Shown here one piece after another: positions 38,993-55,692 of a stretch of 62,402 nucleotides of DNA; the stretch's first letter is position 1, and every line of letters starts with the position of its first letter. The stretch lies in contig NW_025407845.1 in the NCBI RefSeq assembly GCF_003324165.1, positions 574,550 to 636,951 of the forward strand, given 5' to 3'. The stretch is from Naegleria lovaniensis (Eukaryota; Heterolobosea; Eutetramitea; Acrasida; Naegleriidae). The notes under the pieces were generated by a model that saw only the letters and a list, made by a program, of their open reading frames with translations, did no database searches and was not told where the DNA came from. A program made the translations under genes and the position numbers.

Positions 38993-40249
38993 TTAAAGAG
39001 AGGAAATTCCTGTGGCCATCTTTGTCTGATATTTCAAATTCTCAATAATTGGAGCAACTTGAGTGGCCAACTTGGATGGTTCCTTACCATGCAACTTTTT
39101 AGATTCCTTCACCAACAAACAAAAGTCAATAGGAACACTCACAATGGGAACGACACCTTTCACTACCAAACTTGCCAAACTTGCAGCACCAGCATGACCA
39201 TGAGTTAATTTTCCAGTCTGTTGGAAACTGATTTGCTTTTGATTGACTAACGCTTGAACGAGTTGCAACACGGTTACAGTTGAGCTGGCGGAGGTTGTGG
39301 GACTCATGAAGGTCAAACTTTGTTGATCGATGGTTGGATCCGAATTGCGAAAATCATAGGCGAGAGCAATGAGTTCATTGGCATGTTTCGTGTCTTGCTC
39401 CAAAGCTTCTTGAATGGCCTTGGCTGATTTCTTGGCATGCTTCCATTCCGAGACAGCTGCTCCGACCGTGGCTGCAGTTCCGCCTCCGACTAAGGCAGCT
39501 CCGGCTCCGGTGGCCACCAAACTTCCGCCCAAAGTCAATGGAGCTGTAATTAATCCACCAACAATTAAGGAAGCTCCTACAATGTTTGACACGGTTCCTC
39601 CTACTTTGGCTTTGGTCGTGGAGCGAGATCTCTTATTGAGTTGATCGGTCAATTCAGCAAGCTTGGTAAGTACTTCCTTACGTTTTTCAAACCATTTAGT
39701 GGCACAATGTTGTAGAGTTTGAAGGTTGCCATTGGGTTGAGGAGAATCCATCATGATGATTGGATTTCCACCTTGAACTGGGAAAGAAGTGCTGACTGTG
39801 GTCGTCGTGGAGGTCATTATTGGTTGCATGGGCTGTTGTTGTTGTTGTTTCATGGGCAATGGAGGTAATTGTTTCATGGATTGTTGTTGTTCTTGTTGAG
39901 GATAATTCATCATTGGAGGATACTGATATGGATATTGTTGCATGGGTTGATTTCCATACTGTTGTTGTTGTTGTTGAGGAGGATATTGAGAATATAGTTG
40001 AGGTTGTTGCATGGGTTGATTTCCATAATTTGGATAAGTCTGTTGTGGTCCCAAGTTGGGTTGTTGTTGTGGTGGTTGCATGGTTGGTTGTGGTTGTTGT
40101 TGGTATTGGTATTGAGGTTGGCCAGTCATCATCATTTGTGGATAGGACATGGGTGGTTGCTGTTGTTGATACATCATCATGGATGGTTGAGGTTGAATGG
40201 GTGGTTGCATGGAAGGCTGCATGGGTGGTTGCTGTTGTTGTTGTTGCAT
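38993..40249 (-). CDS. Apolipoprotein-L-like protein with Gln/Met/Pro-rich N terminus
   Basis: I prefer the ATG at 40249 (418 residues) after an A-rich leader; an in-frame Met at 40339 would add 30 residues. Residues 1-165 are almost entirely Gln, Pro, Met and Tyr with several polyglutamine runs, a prion-like composition. Residues about 185-300 contain a helical start and then the ApoL-like hydrophobic hairpin: VGGTVSNIVGASLIVGGLIT and the Gly/Ala-rich LGGSLVATGAGAALVGGGTA, followed by a basic amphipathic helix (SEWKHAKKSAKAIQEAL). A second hydrophobic segment is at about 365-390. Apolipoprotein-L domains insert into membranes and can form ion-conducting pores. Proteins with this fold are scattered across eukaryotes. 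Function here is unknown; the repeat-rich tail could drive condensation. Confidence 0.65.
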   Translation of the reverse strand: MQQQQQQPPMQPSMQPPIQPQPSMMMYQQQQPPMSYPQMMMTGQPQYQYQQQPQPTMQPPQQQPNLGPQQTYPNYGNQPMQQPQLYSQYPPQQQQQQYGNQPMQQYPYQYPPMMNYPQQEQQQSMKQLPPLPMKQQQQQPMQPIMTSTTTTVSTSFPVQGGNPIIMMDSPQPNGNLQTLQHCATKWFEKRKEVLTKLAELTDQLNKRSRSTTKAKVGGTVSNIVGASLIVGGLITAPLTLGGSLVATGAGAALVGGGTAATVGAAVSEWKHAKKSAKAIQEALEQDTKHANELIALAYDFRNSDPTIDQQSLTFMSPTTSASSTVTVLQLVQALVNQKQISFQQTGKLTHGHAGAASLASLVVKGVVPIVSVPIDFCLLVKESKKLHGKEPSKLATQVAPIIENLKYQTKMATGISSL

Positions 40250-41033
40250 GATTGTGTGTTTGATTTGTTTTTTTTTGTCTTGTTTTAACCATACACCGTT
40301 TGCCTGGAGTGATTTGAAGGTGAAATGACAATCCTTCATTTGTCAAAAGAGTTGGGAATTCATCTCATTGCTTATTGGTCCTCATAAAAATGGCTTGTTG
40401 TAAACCATATGATGTGACAAATTTAAGACAAGCTGGCGTGATTTTGCATTTTGTATGAATGAAATTTGGTGTTTGACCCCGACCAGTTGTCGCAACGTGA
40501 TGTCATTCATTGCTATTTTGTTTAGTACAAAGAAGGAATCAACTCAACCTCAAGACAATCCTGATACATGTAACGACATGCTGGCACCTTCTCCTTCCAT
40601 TCTTGATGACACATTGTTGGATGGCACTTCGTTGAAAACTTCTTCAACCTAATTTGGCACCATTTCTTTAGAGTTTGTGAACTTATTATCCAAGCTCGAG
40701 TATGCTTAACCGATGCTCTGAGATTTACCATTGCAGTTTCTAAAGTGAGACATGATACTTGTTGAGGTGATCGAAGATTGTCGTGCCAACACTTCCATTC
40801 TCTTTTTATGCAGTCGTTTTTGCAACGTGATGCGGATGACAACTCCTATTAAATTTCCAAAGAATTCCGAGAAAGAAGGATTCTCAATTAGTTAATTTTC
40901 AAAGAATTTAATCAATAATAATTTCATCATGGTTTTGATCTGGTCTCCACATTGAATTGTTGTCATTCTCGTCATCCGTTGCAAAAGATCACAATCCATT
41001 ACAATTTAATCTTTCATAAAATTTTAAAAAAAA
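40250..41033. other. Intergenic region upstream of the ADP/ATP carrier
   Basis: This 784-bp divergent gap holds promoters of the ApoL-like gene and of the carrier gene. A minus-strand frame of 106 codons (40522-40842) is Cys- and Lys-rich without a match to any family I know; I do not call it. The last 100 bp before the carrier are AT-rich and end in a run of A at the start codon. Confidence 0.35.
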
Positions 41034-44002: not shown

Positions 44003-44055
44003 ATCATAGATAGTGGTTGTGGCATCCAAGTTACTTCATTAAATAAATGCAACAA

Positions 44056-44120
44056 GACTCTTCTTTGATGGAACCTTGCTTTAGACCAGACTCTTCTTTG
44101 ATGGAATCATATTTAGACCA
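44056..44120 (+). repeat. Two-copy tandem repeat, about 33 bp
   Basis: Two adjacent units (44056-44088 and 44089-44120) share the start GACTCTTCTTTGATGGAA and end TTTAGACCA, differing in the middle by a few bases and one deletion. They lie in the 3' flanks of two convergent genes. No function is evident. Confidence 0.7.
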
Positions 44121-44219
44121 GCAAGAAGGCCTTTAAAGGTGATTTGCATTGCAACCCTGACTTATCTTAGGACCTTTGAATCTTTGAGAAAGGAGATATT
44201 TGGTAGGACAACCCTGAGT

Positions 44220-47200
44220 TTAAACCGAGAAGGGGTAAGGTTTTATTTCTCCCTCTCTACCTAAACGAATTTCGCCACACCAATCTTCAGGTAGTTGATG
44301 ATCAGCATACCGTTCACATGCTTCCATGTACTTTCGGCATATGGAAACCATACACTTGTTTTGACTCTGCTTAATGAGTTGCGTTGCTGCTGAAAAACAT
44401 TCTCGAAAATTCCTCTCTCGAAACAAGTCCAAAACTTGGGTGAGTTCAGAACGCTCTTTCAACCAAGACTCCTCTGTCTTGGAACTCTTTTTTTTGACGT
44501 CATACAAATTTCTTGCTTTGGAATTATGATGAGGTAAAATAAATTGTCCAAGAAGGGTCAAGTGTACATGATCATTTGTTGCAGTGGATGAAATGAATGG
44601 GATCACACTTTCGGTGACAATAATTTGAGTGTTAAACACTCGTGTAAGAGATTCACAAGCTGCAGCAATGTATGTTGTATCAGAAATGATTGTAGCATCT
44701 ATTCGATCTTCATATCCGACTGTTCCAATGTTGACTGTGCCATTGGAAATTCCAACTCCAATTTTGATATTGCAAATATTATTCTTGTTGAATTTTTCGA
44801 GATTTGAAATTATTTCTAGAGCAGCCATGACGGCTGAATTGGGATCAGGAAATAAGGCCATGATTGCATCACCTTTAGAAAGTAATGTTTCATGTTTCAA
44901 TATAAAAATCAAGGGTTATCGAGTTAATCACCATAAATGTTGTTAAAATTGTCAATATTCAAGCTTGTTCGATAAAATGTCTACAAACCTAGATATCTAT
45001 AGATAAATCCTTCGTGTTTTGAAACTGGTGGAGCTAACTGTTAGATGTTTAAAGTAAGATACCCATTAAGTTACAATGTTCAAATCAAATTCATGCTTAC
45101 CTCCAATAATAATCTGTTGACAAAATGAAATCCTTCTTTCGGTAGCAACTGTTCAATTATTTCTGTGAATCCAAATATATCTGCAAAAAGAATGGTCATT
45201 TCTTTTGTCACAGCATCACCTGGTTGTACTTTGGTAACGTGTGTTTTTCCTATCATCTTTAAAAATTCAGACGGCAAGAAGCGAGTAAAAGAGTTGTTAA
45301 TGGAACTGAAAATTGTTGCGTTATCAATGCTGACAGAGATGATTAGATTGGCCATAGTCACGTTTTCCACAGAGAAACCACTTGCATTTTCGCTATTTTC
45401 TAAATAAATGCATCCAATTGAACTACGTTCTCTTATTACGGGAACGCATAAAGCAGAGAAAATTGTTTTCTGGTTCTTTTCAAAATAAGGTTCAGTTTTG
45501 TCTTCCTTTGGATAGAGTTGTTCTGTTTTAGTTCGTAAAGTTCTGTAAGCCATTGTTACAGGTATTGGCAATTCCAGTGTTGAGTCTATTGCTCTTCCTT
45601 CGTAGATGGTCATTATTGGTGAAATATTTGTATTCTCTACATCAATACTGTCCTGTTTGTTTGTAGTTAATTCTGCATCTAAATACAGAATAGAATTTCT
45701 TTTTAACATCAAGCAGCACCGCTTGGCTTCAGTATGTTCCCTAATTAAAGGTAAAATCGAAGTAAATATTTCTTTCAGATCTAGATCACTATTTTCTTCA
45801 ATTACGCTCTTGTTATAAGGTGACAGCAAGCAGTGTGGTTTTGATAGATCAATAAAACTATCTTGTGACGAGATGTTGCTAGATGGTTGTTTAGACAATT
45901 CTAACTGATTCTCGTAGAGACTCTTCTCGTATGCTTCAATTTGTTGTCTATAATTCGTCCACAAGTAGTCAGCAAATATAATAATTCCCATTTCATTAAA
46001 TTGAGCATAAGCATGAGAGAAATATCGTCCGCTCACACTATCGTCCATTTCAAGCTCATGGTACAGGACACCAATTTTCCAATAAGCTAATTTTTGAATG
46101 AGTAAATTCCGTTCTTGAATTGCTAGCTTGAGACATCTGTTATAGGTGGAAATAATTGTAGCTGTGTTTTTCGTTCCAAATCGTCGAAAATCAACGAGTA
46201 AACGTTCAGCTAACAGTAATTGATGCCAACATTGAAATATCAATGGATTTGTGTGTGAAACCTTTTCAATGGTTTGCAATGAATACTCTATTAGCTTGTC
46301 ACATCTATCAACTAGTGAGGGAGCTGTTGCACTTTTCAGCAAATAAGTTTCATATTCACAAGCAGTTAGCCCATTAAACAACGCATTGAGCCATTCATTG
46401 TTCAATCCAGCTGTATTATATCTTAATTCGTATGTCTTCTCAAAGCATTGAAATGCCTCTTCAACGCTTCGTTGAAAGTACAATGAAATACCCTTGAACA
46501 TGAAGTGATAGTAACTGTAAAAGGGCTGACTGAAAACATCTGTCAAGTAGGGAGGTTCAAAGCGTTCATGTTCACCACACAACACTTGTTTCATTTCTAA
46601 CTGCGCAAGGGCTGTATCTGCTAGACCAAAATTTCCCATATGCTTCAATGTTTCTATGACTTTGTTGCTTAAACTAATAGCGGTTTTCATATCGCCATTC
46701 GCATCAAAAAAATGATGATATGTATATTGTCCAATGGTAAATACTCCTATATCTTTGTTATTGCTTTTCATGGTCACTAAAAAAGCCTCTTCAGCCATAT
46801 TCCATACTTCCAACGAATTCACAGGAAGAATAAAAAAGCTCAAAAGTCGTAATAACAAACATGCAGCCAAATGTTTCTGATTCTTGTATTTGGTTCTTGC
46901 AAGTTCTACTCCTCCTTCCACGAAAATATGCATGTGTGGATATAATTCAAATGTGCACCAAAACCAACCTAATGCACAAAGAACAAAAGGTGCATATTCA
47001 CAAAGCCCGTGCTGAAGAATGATTTCACTGCAAACAAGAATGATGATCATGTAAATATAGTTGCTGTTGGCGCTTTGCATGCAATAGACACCTGGACTAC
47101 TCATGGCTAGAATGTTAATGAAATTGATCTTTTCCAAATCATTCAGATCAGGCAAGTTCATAATATCTTGTTTAGATGTAAAGCGATTCAACAAAGTGTT

Positions 47201-50200
47201 TTTCAAGTAATCCATCTTAGTTTTCATAAATAATTTCAGTTGTTCAACATCGGTTTGAAATGTTAGAAATTTTAGTTCGTCCTTCGATGGAAAAATATGG
47301 CTCTGAAGTATTTCAAAAACCTTTTCAAACTGCCCTAGTGACACGTATGCCATTTGAGCATGATAGCATGCTTGATAAAGGTGATGCTTCGTTTTTGATC
47401 TTTCAATGGCAGAGTTGAAAATTGAAATGGCAGAGTCAATGTTTGAAGAGTATTCGCAATTTCCTTGTGCAATCAGTAAATCAAAAGCAATATTGTATAA
47501 GAAAGAGTCTTCTTCCCAAATATTAGTGTTTTCACAGAGTAACAACTCGCGTGCAATATTGACAAAGGTTCTGGCCTGTTCAATAGCGCCTAAATTGATG
47601 GCCTTTTTTGCAGCCATAGTATTCAAGTTGAGAAGAAGTCTTCTAGTTTTTCTGTTTTCAAAAATAGTAGAATCATGAGCTCGGTAGTTCAAGTGAACGG
47701 CGATACTTGAGAGAGCCTTGTATTCAGGAGTGAGAATAAATCTCGAATAGGTATCGTTGATGTTTAAAATAAGCTCCAAGTTTACACTATGGGCAAAGTC
47801 AGAAACTTGTTTCAGTAATTCATCTGAGAGAGTTGATGCATGATTGTTTTTGTGAGCTGTCAATTCTTTTCTAACTTTTTCAAACTTTTCTCTTGCTTGT
47901 GAAGAAAAATTAATCTCAAATCGAGAACTGGATGAAAAGTGACTCTCATTCCATTCTTCTATTTCTTCACAAATCTTTTTAAATAAATCGTGGCTACTGT
48001 CTGTGCTTTTCAATAACTCTCTAAAATTCTCAACCTTGGTCCACATGATCACATTCTCCAATGAGAATTCCAATTTGCAAAATTGCTCAAAAACTTTTTT
48101 AGTGCTTGGATTCTTCAAAAGTTTTGTTACAGCATCCTGTTCGCTCTCTACTACGGAATCGGTGGTCGAAGATTTGTTTCTTGCTGATAAATTCTTGGAA
48201 TTCTTAATGAACGATCCAATAAATACCAATCCACCAAAGGCAATGATAAATCCTGCTTCAAATAATGTTTGAAAAACTAAATTAAATGCAAGTTTGAGAG
48301 TGAGGTTATCGTTGGTAAATGGTGAAGACGAGGTTGAAGTATCTGTGCTCGTTGTTGAATTAGTCTCGGCAAGAACGGAAAATCCTAAACCATAAGCAAT
48401 AATGAAGAGTGCAATGGAAACGAAAAATATAACAGCTTCTAATCTGAAAAATAATCTGTCATTGGTTAAAAAGAAATGTTGCATTCTTCGAAGGAACGAT
48501 GAATTTGAGTAAAATTTCCAATTCACTTGAACGCCTTTTGCACCCGTTTTAGGGAATGATTTTGTCACACCTTGTACGAAATGCTCCAATTTTGATGAGC
48601 CTGATTGTTGTTGAGTTTTGTTGTTGTTACCGTGGTCACTTGACATGATGAACTTGCCCACATTTTTCATTTCATTCGATATTTGTTTGTACTTGACCTC
48701 CATATAAATATCAAACAAATAAATTCCAATTAAGCATGTGGTCATAACCATGACAAATACAAAGAAGGATACACTCATAATCCATGAAAAAGTGGTCGAT
48801 GTAATGACACTTGTTCTTGCCAGAGAAACAAAAATTACAAAATAGCCAATCACACATAAGCTGATGACACAGTTGGAAAGAATCATAAACTTCTTGTTGG
48901 AAATGAATTTCACAATTGGTGATAATTGTTTTAAGGAAAGTTGTCTCTCATTGAGCATGCTCATAATTTCATACATGTATCTAAACAAAATGTATCTAAT
49001 GTGGTTTAACACGAAATTCCAAATTGCCAAAGAAATCAAAGTAACCACAACCAATGCAGACACATCTCTGAAAATATTGACAGCGTCGTAACTAATGGAA
49101 GCTCCATTATTAATGCTGAGCGTGATCGATTCTGAAACAATATTGGAAAAGGCATTTTCAATGAGTAGAGCAATCAGTGAAAGGTATGGGAATATCCATC
49201 GACTCTTAATAGGTTGTTTGGTGAAAGCTTTGACATTTGACATGATGACCAATCCTACAAGGATGATCAGAATGCAAATGATAAATATGGACGAGATGAT
49301 AATTTGTGCAATTAATTGTGGGTCAGAGGAGAAGGTTGAGCGTGTATCTTGTGAAAATTCAATAAATGAAGTGAATTTGGTTGTGTGGTCGCATTCACAT
49401 CTAATGTAATAGGTTGATAGCTGGAGTGTTACACATCCATTTGATTTCCAAGCGTTCACTGTTTCATTCCAATACATGCATATAAAATTATATTTGAGGT
49501 TAGATGATTTCGTAAATTGCTCAATTCGAGAAATCATTGACGTGTTGAGAGTGGGAAAAAGTATTTGAATGGGTTGAGGCAAATCTGTGAGAGCTGTAAT
49601 CAATCCATTTTGTAAATATTCTACTGAAATGATTGGGGCTATGGAAACTCGAATCAATGGCATAGATGAGTTATTAGTTAGAGTGGAGTTCAGTGTGATG
49701 TTTTGTGAAATGATTTGAATGGTATTTGACAAGTCCTGTAAAGTATCTGTTATAATAGTTGTTGTGGTAGAATTGAATTCTAATTGTACAGTTTGGCTGG
49801 GTACAATCTTTGAGCTATACAAATATTTGACACTTCCCAAAGAGAGTTTCTTTCCCGATTTCGCAGTCTCAGAAATTAATGAGTTGGGAGTGAAAATAAT
49901 GATGCTTCCATTGAGAGTCAGGAATGGGTTGCTTGTTTGGTTTGTCAAATCTGGCAATATCACTACCTCAAAAGCTTCATTGTTCAATATATGACTGTCT
50001 GTCGTGTTAGCTGTCAATGCTGTCACTGAAATCATATTTTCAATTACTGAGCTATACTTGTTATTTGTATAAGATCTCAATGCAGTCATGCAATTTGAAA
50101 TAATACCCAATACATCCTTGACTGTGTCAACCATATTACTTATCGATTGAACTTCAGAATTGGAAGATTGATTCTTCGAAAGAGAAACCATAATTTTTGA

Positions 50201-50953
50201 ATAATCACTAATGGAATCGGTAATTCCTCCAACGCTCATTTGTGATAATTCTTCTTTAAATGAAGAAACAGATTTAAATGAATTGACCAATGACTTGGTA
50301 TCATGCAATGTTGAAGTATTGGGATTCATGGCACAAAGAGCCATCGTGAGTGAGTCCAATAGTTTTTGTTTGTGCGAACTCAATGCATATAATAAGGAAT
50401 TTGTAGAAGCTTGTTCCAAATCTGTCAATGATAATTTGCTTAACGTATCAAAGGATGTAAATTCATTATATGATTGGATGATCATTTTGTTGACGGACCA
50501 TGGATTTATAGTATTTGCAACGGGAAAAGAATTCAACGTTTTTACATCGACTCTGGCAGTGTAATTGGCGACCGCAGTGAATACTGGTAACACAATTTCA
50601 AATCTCGTTGTAAATGGAATGACATTCAGAGAGGGTGTTTTGATTTTATCTGTCATTGGAATTTTCGCATAGTCGTCTTGGTAATATATTTGATATTCAA
50701 AGGCCGCTGTTAAAGGCATCAGCCAATTATTCACTTTCACAGAGAGTTTTGGCTTTCCTGAAGTGTCATTCACATACGTTGTGGATGGTACAAATGAAAC
50801 TTCAAGTGATGGATCGGCCTTGACTCTTTCACACCACAACACAAATCCCACAACAAGGAAAAGAAGTAGAAGAGTATTTGTTATGGGTGTTCTTGTGATT
50901 CTATGACGCGTCGGCCGCGTGATGTGTGGTTGGTGGTGGTTGCTTTGTGTCAT
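44220..50953 (-). CDS. GPS-like/seven-membrane receptor fused to RGS, TPR-like, GAF and class III cyclase domains
   Basis: Exon 1 is 50953-45101, exon 2 a 49-nt microexon 45037-44989, and exon 3 44872-44220: 2184 residues. Signal peptide about 20-45. A long Ser/Thr/Asn-rich ectodomain ends in a GPS-like motif, CECDHTTKFTSF (about residue 519), as in adhesion GPCRs. Seven hydrophobic segments lie at about 545-925. An RGS domain follows at about 945-1080 (FEQFCKLEFSLENV ... NDTYSRFILTPEYKAL), then about 600 residues of TPR-like helices, a GAF domain at about 1715-1885, and a class III cyclase domain from about 1910. The cyclase has metal Asp1925 (FADIFGFT) and Asp1969 (LGDAIMALF), 44 apart as in mammalian adenylyl cyclase, but Tyr2035 and Ala2039 replace the catalytic Asn and Arg. 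The TPR-GAF-cyclase part resembles bacterial multidomain proteins. It may respond to an external ligand; substrate is unknown. Confidence 0.85.
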
Positions 50954-54194: not shown

Positions 54195-54618
54195 CTGTTG
54201 TAAAAAGCAACCATAAAACACCAAATTGTGAGTACATGCAAATCCAAATAATGTCATCTGCATTGATAAGTACAGCATCAACACGTTTTAAAATTCAATA
54301 CTTTACATACCCGATTGAATCTAAACAATGTTTGCAATTCTTAACGATTTACAGCAACCGTTCATCGAAGGTCAACCGAATGCAAGCTTGTAAGGGTTGT
54401 TCATACTTAAATGGATGAATTCAGCCTTAGGCGGTTTCCAATTACAGGTTTTCTCCTCCGTACGGAGCAACAAAAGTTATTTTTAAACAACCGGAACGGA
54501 AACGTATCTCGGAGCCGGAGTCACTTACCTTCCGATTCAAGCAAAAGCAACACAAATATCTCTTGCATGGGTATATCCTATCAAAAAAAACAAATCTACA
54601 CACTATTCACACACAACC
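54195..54618. promoter_or_regulatory. Upstream region of the papain-family protease
   Basis: This 424-bp gap has a patch that is richer in G and C than its surroundings (54440-54540), including the 12-bp palindrome CTCCGTACGGAG at 54456-54467. The 60 bp before the start codon are A/C-rich with ACACA runs. The promoter role is positional. Confidence 0.35.
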
Positions 54619-55692
54619 ATGTTGAACAAACTACTCTTCACACTGTTGCTTGTGACTATTTTGACCCTCTCAATTCAAGCAAAGGAACCATTTACCTTGC
54701 TCCCCGAATCAGAAATGCAACGACTCTTCACCCAATTCAGCAGACAACATGTTAAATTATATGGTACCTCAGAAATCCACGAAAGACGATACCAAATCTT
54801 CAAAGCCAACGTTGAAAAGGCAAGATTTGAGAATTACATTACTGGTCGAGAGAATTTGGGAATTACCAGATTTTCAGATCTCACTCCAGAAGAATTCAAG
54901 AGTATGTTCTTGATGAAGACTAAAACGCCTCGGGAAGCAAGAGAAATTCTGATTGGAAAGAAACAACCCTCTCCAGCAACCGCCAAGGTGACCATTAAAC
55001 AATTACAGGAAGCTCCAAAGGCCTTCGATTGGAGAGAACACCAAGCTGTAACTCCAGTGAAGGATCAAGGATCTTGTGGAAGTTGTTGGACATTCTCCAC
55101 CACAGGTAACATTGAAGGAATGTATGCTGCCAAAACAGGAAAACTCGTTAGTTTGTCAGAACAACAATTGGTGGACTGTGACCACAATTGCGTCGTGTGG
55201 GAAGGTGAAAAGACATGCAACAGTGGTTGCAATGGTGGATTAATGTGGAGTAGTTTCGAATTCATTATCAAGACCGGTGGTTTGGTCACTGAGGATTCTT
55301 ACCCTTATGAAGCTGTTAATGGAAGATGTCGATTCAATGTTTCGAATGCAGTTGTGAAAATTTCCAACTGGACCTTTGTTTCCACTCATGAAGATGAAAT
55401 GTCTGCTTGGTTGGCAAACAACGGTCCAATTGCAGTTGCAATCAATGCTGATTATCTTCAATACTATCGAAAGGGAATTCTTAATCCATCGAGATGTGAT
55501 CCAGAGGAATTGAATCATGGTGTCTTGATTGTTGGTTATGGTGAAGAAAAGGCAGCCAATGGTAAAATTGAACAATATTGGATTGTGAAAAACTCATGGT
55601 CCACTTCTTGGGGAGAGAAGGGATATTTCCGTCTCTTGAAAGGAAAGGGAGTTTGTGGAATTAATCAAGTCCCATCCACTGCCCTTATTTAA
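54619..55692 (+). CDS. Papain-family cysteine protease, cathepsin F/RD19-like
   Basis: 357 residues, no intron, ATG at 54619. Residues 1-21 are a signal peptide. The propeptide (to about residue 130) has an ERFNIN-type helix (ERRYQIFKANVEKARFEN) and ITRFSDLTPEEF, which inhibits the enzyme until cleaved. The mature domain has QGSCGSCW with C156, H300 in LNHGVLIVGYG, N325 in KNSWSTSWGEKGYF. The segment VDCDHNCVVWEGEKTCNSGC followed by NGGLM is the extended, Cys-rich form seen in RD19/cathepsin F rather than cathepsin L. The enzyme would act in lysosomes, food vacuoles or outside the cell. Such proteases are abundant in Naegleria. The start is unambiguous. Confidence 0.95.
   Translation: MLNKLLFTLLLVTILTLSIQAKEPFTLLPESEMQRLFTQFSRQHVKLYGTSEIHERRYQIFKANVEKARFENYITGRENLGITRFSDLTPEEFKSMFLMKTKTPREAREILIGKKQPSPATAKVTIKQLQEAPKAFDWREHQAVTPVKDQGSCGSCWTFSTTGNIEGMYAAKTGKLVSLSEQQLVDCDHNCVVWEGEKTCNSGCNGGLMWSSFEFIIKTGGLVTEDSYPYEAVNGRCRFNVSNAVVKISNWTFVSTHEDEMSAWLANNGPIAVAINADYLQYYRKGILNPSRCDPEELNHGVLIVGYGEEKAANGKIEQYWIVKNSWSTSWGEKGYFRLLKGKGVCGINQVPSTALI

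Follow-up and report, generated by a model that had tools for sequence, protein, structure and literature searches.

The window, a 62,402-nucleotide stretch of Naegleria lovaniensis DNA, lies at the right-hand end of contig C24 in the genome searched here (30.7 Mb, 97 contigs; PMC6125883 describes a published assembly of 112 contigs, made from PacBio reads of 6893 bp on average), and its last ~290 bases carry TACTCTTTGGGTT and TTTGGG repeats of telomere-like appearance. The gene C9374_005335 lies on its minus strand, with its ATG at 50953, ~11.4 kb from the apparent chromosome end. A minus-strand frame from 51076 to 45080 remains open over 1998 codons, an event of probability ~10^-62 by single-base composition, and encodes without any intron a probable signal peptide, a GPS motif, seven hydrophobic segments, an RGS domain, a TPR-like region, a GAF domain and the first part of a class III cyclase domain. 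Two GT...AG introns follow, both positioned inside the cyclase part only. The spliced product of 2184 residues is letter-identical to the NCBI protein of C9374_005335 (P0001 hereafter), which belongs to gene models built with BRAKER1 and the aid of RNA-seq (PMC6125883). The full-length protein was searched against Pfam profiles, bit scores being given below with the cut-off of each family; no match was obtained for P0001 in NCBIfam.

44220..50953, minus strand: whole gene C9374_005335, ATG at 50953, stop codon ending at 44220, 2184 aa
50953-45101, 45037-44989 and 44872-44220, minus strand: the three exons
45038..45100, minus strand: intron 1, 63 nt, same splice in the NCBI protein
44873..44988, minus strand: intron 2, 116 nt, same splice in the NCBI protein
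50831..50887, minus strand: N-terminal hydrophobic segment, probable signal peptide (aa 23-41), from hydropathy only
49370..49483, minus strand: GPS motif CECDHTTKF (aa 491-528), Pfam GPS 34.6 bits, cut-off 22.5
48206..49303, minus strand: seven hydrophobic segments, from hydropathy, at like places in the homologs P0002 and P0008
47702..48127, minus strand: RGS domain (aa 943-1084), Pfam RGS 29.0 bits, cut-off 23.9, spanning aa 943-1051
47701..47702, minus strand: fusion junction (aa 1084/1085) inside exon 1, from the borders of BLASTP matches
45854..47701, minus strand: TPR-like region (aa 1085-1700, far border approximate), 46-56% identity to a kinase-AAA-TPR-GAF-cyclase family
45350..45781, minus strand: GAF domain (aa 1725-1868), Pfam GAF 22.4 bits, cut-off 22.4
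44589..45205, minus strand: class III cyclase domain (aa 1917-2062) spread over the three exons, Pfam Guanylate_cyc 42 bits, cut-off 21.9

A first-pass annotation of this locus had read one chain joined up by the reading frame and two introns. The single chain, from the GPS to the cyclase start in one 1998-codon frame, is borne out by C9374_005335; the introns, on the other hand, play no part in linking receptor and cyclase, since a single exon spans the join, and a chimera made by an intron was rejected on the same ground.

A receptor-like half and a bacterial-like half

The GPS is located 22 residues upstream of TM1, directly before the 7TM region. Cleavage is predicted between T524 and T525 with the participation of His523: His523 and Thr525 presumably represent the usual catalytic pair, with Thr524 occupying the place of the usual leucine. 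The hydrophobic segments cover aa 551-569, 587-605, 631-649, 691-709, 728-746, 840-858 and 898-916, and the 7TM assignment rests on these seven segments, which recur in order in P0002 and P0008. The gene is not filed as an adhesion GPCR because no 7TM family of Pfam matched at E<=1 in a search with the exon-1 translation, in which the HMMER filters drop most weak matches. With the RGS domain after the seven segments, the layout is that of a 7TM-RGS receptor, as established by hydropathy and Pfam. The EN, (I/V)(N/S) and D(T/S)YxRF positions of RGS domains contact G-alpha; alignment to solved RGS domains indicates that the first two are kept, and the third is kept in a very weak second alignment piece to RGS14. 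The RGS domain is a putative G-alpha GAP.

In the back half, the GAF score falls exactly at its cut-off in the full protein and reaches 22.6 bits in the exon-1 translation. No TPR family of Pfam matched this translation at E<=1 with the same filters, and the name "TPR-like" rests on homology to P0010, a metagenome protein bearing a TPR domain. The profile searches proposed in the first-pass annotation therefore recover GPS, RGS, GAF (at its cut-off) and cyclase, but leave TPR and 7TM without a Pfam match; between the GPS and the cyclase, the RGS domain stands by Pfam and the seven segments by hydropathy.

BLASTP places the border between both halves at aa 1084/1085. P0002, a protein of 1153 residues, matches aa 13-1084 at 73% identity and ends 14 residues later, whereas the matches of P0003, P0004 and P0005 begin at aa 1084 and that of P0009 at aa 1083, with 46-56% identity. 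We take P0002 as the N. fowleri ortholog because it is 99.3-99.8% identical to two stretches of FDP41_002215 (89.6% to FDP41_010182); it is thus the apparent unfused counterpart of the front half. Its RGS match extends to position 115 of the 117 of the Pfam profile, and its last 14 residues bear no resemblance to the TPR-like region that N. lovaniensis encodes further along the junction exon. A further exon may follow the modelled end of P0002. Searched against the N. lovaniensis genome, P0002 matches the fusion itself best (76% identity, 1604 bits), with a locus at 27% and 209 bits coming second (40 of 64 candidates scored). The same domain order had been expected to be searchable in other Naegleria genomes: the front half was found in N. 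fowleri, but P0002 ends without a cyclase. No N. gruberi protein occurs among the matches listed, and on the receptor side N. fowleri is the only other species listed; the fusion has so far been seen only in N. lovaniensis.

On the other side of the junction, P0004 (C9374_004727) and P0005 (C9374_005915) carry kinase and AAA_16 domains (Pfam) ahead of the shared part, which begins at their residues 844 and 814, respectively. This suggests that, where the TPR-like region begins, the receptor has taken over from the kinase-ATPase front. Indeed, C9374_005335 lacks the kinase and AAA front of the kinase-AAA-TPR-GAF-cyclase family and has the TPR-like, GAF and cyclase back; a membrane receptor with an RGS domain stands in place of the front. 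P0003, which is 74-82% identical to P0004, looks like its counterpart. A tree of the back half (10 rows, 9 different) leaves P0001 without a supported place inside the Naegleria family, with values of 50/49 at the fork; P0004 is its nearest NCBI-annotated relative by tree path, in an unsupported placement. Furthermore, a scan of bacterial and archaeal genomes gave 580 relatives, the best 80 of which were kept, and 58 of these 80 were assigned to Cyanobacteriota. In 7 of the best 80 the match passes query residue 1750, the cyclase match of P0005 covering residues 1581-1744. A likeness to bacterial TPR-GAF-cyclase cores, suspected from the DNA alone, is thereby upheld, with TPR present in P0010, and homology puts the back half in a bacterial-like kinase-AAA-TPR-GAF-cyclase family.

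The cyclase domain and its candidate partners

The cyclase domain aligns to photoactivated adenylyl cyclases of solved structure (5mbg, E 8.9e-13). An active class III homodimer needs two metal-binding Asp, a Lys/Glu, an Asp/Thr, an Asn and an Arg. In C9374_005335 both metal aspartates (D1925 and D1969) and the Thr (T2028) are present, but the Lys is replaced by R1965, the Asn by Y2035 and the Arg by A2039, which turns NxxxR into YxxxA; the residue set of an active homodimer is incomplete. The retention of the Asp pair with the loss of NxxxR is the pattern of one half of a heterodimeric cyclase, of the NeoR or C1 type. Judged by these residues, the domain should not work as a homodimer, and second-messenger production would probably need a partner subunit because the NxxxR pair and the substrate lysine are lost. 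The Thr at the base-contact position, common to adenylyl cyclases, suggests cAMP as the product. The first-pass annotation had placed ligand sensing, G-protein shut-off and second-messenger production in one molecule; the one-chain architecture stands, but with NxxxR and the substrate Lys gone a second-messenger source working alone is unlikely.

Sister cyclases of the same genome offer candidates for such a partner. The K, second D, T, N and R motifs are kept at the loci on C2 and C48 and are present at the locus on C32, where N and R are read in different frames. The first Asp is present in C2, and in C48 and C32 too according to exon matches. P0005 has Gly instead of the first Asp but retains the Asn and Arg. 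Candidate partner cyclases are hence P0005 and the loci on C2, C48 and C32. The loci on these three contigs retain the NxxxR pair, which C9374_005335 and C9374_004727 have both lost; its loss in C9374_004727 too could reflect decay instead of a half-site. The cyclase repertoire of these amoebae is large, with at least 81 cyclase proteins reported in the genus Naegleria, including 4 confined to N. lovaniensis (PMC9928731), and 80 reported for N. fowleri (PMC9283941).

NeoR/RGC provides the closest known parallel for the residue pattern, being a rhodopsin-cyclase chain with metal aspartates and without NxxxR, as in C9374_005335 (PMC12264004). According to the accessible text of that study, the missing NxxxR is offered as the reason why NeoR is inactive alone, NeoR and RGC form an active heterodimer to which NeoR gives the metal aspartates, and NxxxR is also absent in mammalian sAC and tmAC, which have one active site (PMC12264004). 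On the other hand, NeoR did not regain activity upon reinsertion of the NxxxR pair (PMC12264004). The two systems differ in that NeoR/RGC has a microbial rhodopsin, cGMP as its product and a demonstrated partner (PMC12264004), whereas C9374_005335 has candidate partners only. The half-site reading of the cyclase is thus well motivated, though short of proof.

The same residue losses would fit a working 7TM-RGS receptor that carries a dead cyclase as a passenger, in which the fusion is real and the back half a scaffold or a decaying remnant. Such a passenger would be in keeping with the loss of the kinase and ATPase input, with a fusion known from one species among the matches listed, with a decayed-looking kinase fragment of the family elsewhere in the genome (on C41) and with the place of the gene near a contig end. 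However, the two metal aspartates persist in a back half (aa 1085-2184) whose frame only the two introns interrupt, and GC3 is alike across the junction (0.34-0.43 in the front, 0.30-0.37 in the back), and we hold a dead passenger to be unlikely. Distinctly less credible is a self-sufficient receptor cyclase whose homodimers would produce cAMP under direct 7TM control: the cyclase family match, the two Asp and the Thr speak for it, but both sites of a homodimer would be devoid of Asn and Arg and have an Arg in place of the Lys.

Reality and proposed origin of the fusion

The reality of the join was examined across the genome. A search with the junction stretch gave a single full-length match, plus five that cover only part of it at 65-71%, and neither a second copy nor an unfused allele was found in the assembly by the junction-stretch and P0002 searches (40 of 64 P0002 candidates scored). 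A genome search with P0004 (26 of 117 candidates scored) gave family loci bearing both halves on C23 (the P0004 locus itself), on C2, C26 and C32, and two such loci on C48; it also listed the back half of the fusion, cyclase-end matches elsewhere and the kinase fragment on C41. An orphan kinase-AAA half, as a mis-join would have left, was sought in this search and no intact one was found among the candidates scored.

As a control, the genome was surveyed for GPS, RGS and cyclase matches, which listed 124 cyclase matches, 20 GPS matches and, with 150 of 177 candidates scored, 143 RGS matches. Among the 20 GPS matches, only that of C9374_005335 has a same-strand cyclase match no more than 12 kb away, and 9 are followed by an RGS match no more than 3 kb downstream. 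This control is weak in that the cyclase list is without the family loci on C23, C32, C48 and C2:569-575 kb, and cyclases split by introns can escape it. By eye, comparison of the P0004 matches (26 of 117 candidates scored) with the GPS matches gives the C24 pair as the only one within 12 kb. The join of the receptor and the cyclase part is well supported by these sequence comparisons. A mis-join in the assembly, or two transcripts merged into one gene model, is made thinkable by the unfused ortholog P0002, the contig-end place and the 26 of 117 candidates scored in the search for the orphan half, but is very improbable given that a single exon crosses the junction in the same frame, that the assembly comes from PacBio reads of 6.9 kb on average with RNA-seq-aided annotation (PMC6125883), and that neither a second allele nor an intact orphan other half was found among the candidates scored (40 of 64 and 26 of 117).

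We favor, with a probability of roughly 0.5, a receptor that bears a G-alpha GAP together with one of the two halves of a heterodimeric cyclase and that arose by gene fusion near a chromosome end. A GPS-7TM-RGS receptor, minus its last residues, would have been fused there to a bacterial-like kinase-AAA-TPR-GAF-cyclase protein from its TPR-like region onwards, and the back half would have parted with its kinase and ATPase input. Contact from outside would act through the GPS stalk and the 7TM bundle on the RGS domain, which would speed GTP hydrolysis by G-alpha, and the TPR-like and GAF linker would relay the same change to the cyclase domain. The latter would offer its metal-binding face only, the Lys, Thr, Asn and Arg being supplied by a sister cyclase, and each heterodimer would have a single active site, like NeoR/RGC or mammalian tmAC. 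A more specific version is advanced only tentatively: the single cytoplasmic tail of this GPS-type 7TM receptor would combine a G-alpha off-switch and an obligate heterodimeric-cyclase half whose kinase-ATPase input was swapped for the receptor, and one outside signal would both silence a G protein that activates itself and use the docked sister cyclase to start or stop cyclic nucleotide synthesis.

Relation to known receptors and significance

To our knowledge, NeoR/RGC has neither an RGS domain nor a GPS, and plant AtRGS1 neither a GPS nor a cyclase. AtRGS1 nevertheless shares with C9374_005335 a 7TM region joined to RGS, and acts on a self-activating G-alpha (PMC9283941). The front half has its closest described counterparts among the 7TM-RGS proteins of N. 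fowleri, of which 28 are reported, a number of them with a GPS (PMC9283941). The shared layout is a GPS, seven TM segments and an RGS domain at the C-terminus, and the apparent direct ortholog P0002 is 73% identical; the difference is that P0002 ends just after the RGS domain and C9374_005335 goes on into the cyclase. The expectation that GPCR-RGS fusions exist in amoebae agrees with this description. Four RGS domains of the N. fowleri proteins were produced, one of which was unreadable in the assay, and the three readable ones were GAPs for some G-alpha proteins, self-activating ones included, with no response from Nf G-alpha1 (PMC9283941).

Oomycete GPCR-AC bigrams also have an N-terminal 7TM region and a C-terminal cyclase in one chain, a likeness of domain order (PMC6033456, PMC5784254). 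They are set apart by description, the accessible text of both papers mentioning no GPS, RGS, TPR or GAF in them (PMC6033456, PMC5784254). GPCR-AC homologues are reported to be absent outside oomycetes (PMC5784254), and no oomycete protein is named among our protein matches listed. Thus GPS-7TM-RGS proteins in N. fowleri and 7TM-cyclase bigrams in oomycetes are already described. The full domain combination of C9374_005335 was not found described in the text of the openly accessible papers searched, in line with the statement of the first-pass annotation that it knew of no such protein. C9374_005335 would extend a known receptor family by part of a cyclase, in what is a well-supported fusion. 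Furthermore, the Naegleria GPS-7TM proteins bear, through a likeness of domain order, on the placing of the GAIN-7TM union in stem holozoans by a 2025 survey of choanoflagellate GPCRs (PMC12716839).

If the proposed reading is true, a receptor, G-protein shut-off and part of an effector would be united in one chain, and the direct drive of a tethered cyclase by a 7TM receptor would become testable in an amoeba that is not a pathogen. The unfused N. fowleri ortholog and the N. lovaniensis fusion form a natural before-and-after pair, and a new receptor would have emerged in Naegleria through exchange of its input module at the edge of a repeat domain, close to the end of a chromosome.

Features flanking the fusion gene and the contig end

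Beside the fusion gene C9374_005335, the window holds a short repeat immediately downstream of the stop codon, two protein matches and, up to the right end of the contig, a repeat array:

38993-40342 (-), Apolipoprotein L match in an open frame (40 bits; cut-off 25.9)
44055-44121, 33-base repeat, two copies, right after the stop codon of the fusion gene
54487-55692 (+), cysteine protease of the papain family, with an I29 propeptide, close to the contig end
62115-62402, tandem TACTCTTTGGGTT (17 copies), then TTTGGG (11.5 copies), up to the contig end

The DNA of the open frame with the Apolipoprotein L match contains tandem repeats. The terminal array is telomere-like. Four consecutive TTTGGG units, searched for across the assembly, gave 1118 forward matches, with places listed for the first of these, versus 0 reverse matches, so that left contig ends may be devoid of TTTGGG repeats.

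Apparent models of one 7TM-RGS gene in N. fowleri

Two annotated N. fowleri proteins, P0006 (FDP41_010182) and P0007 (FDP41_002215), are encoded on separate contigs, and each lacks some parts present in P0002, the apparent ortholog of the receptor half. They appear to be differing models of one 7TM-RGS gene.

Relatives of the back half and loci of opposite order

A kinase-AAA-TPR-GAF-cyclase gene is present in the assembly as two inverted copies (C48:134801-140670 (+) and C48:243964-249832 (-)), which do not differ across the stretch used for the tree alignment and reflect either a true duplication or an assembly effect. The gene for the related protein P0004 lies near a contig start (C23:1664-7703), and no telomere-like array occurs within the first 1700 bases of that contig. 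A kinase-only fragment of the same family (C41:230700-231900) carries five stops within the match and is decayed-looking.

At two further loci (C9:738266-739647 and C46:70050-71233), cyclase matches are followed within 0.5 kb, on the same strand, by an RGS match in frame with the cyclase end; this order is the reverse of that in the fusion gene, where RGS precedes the cyclase.
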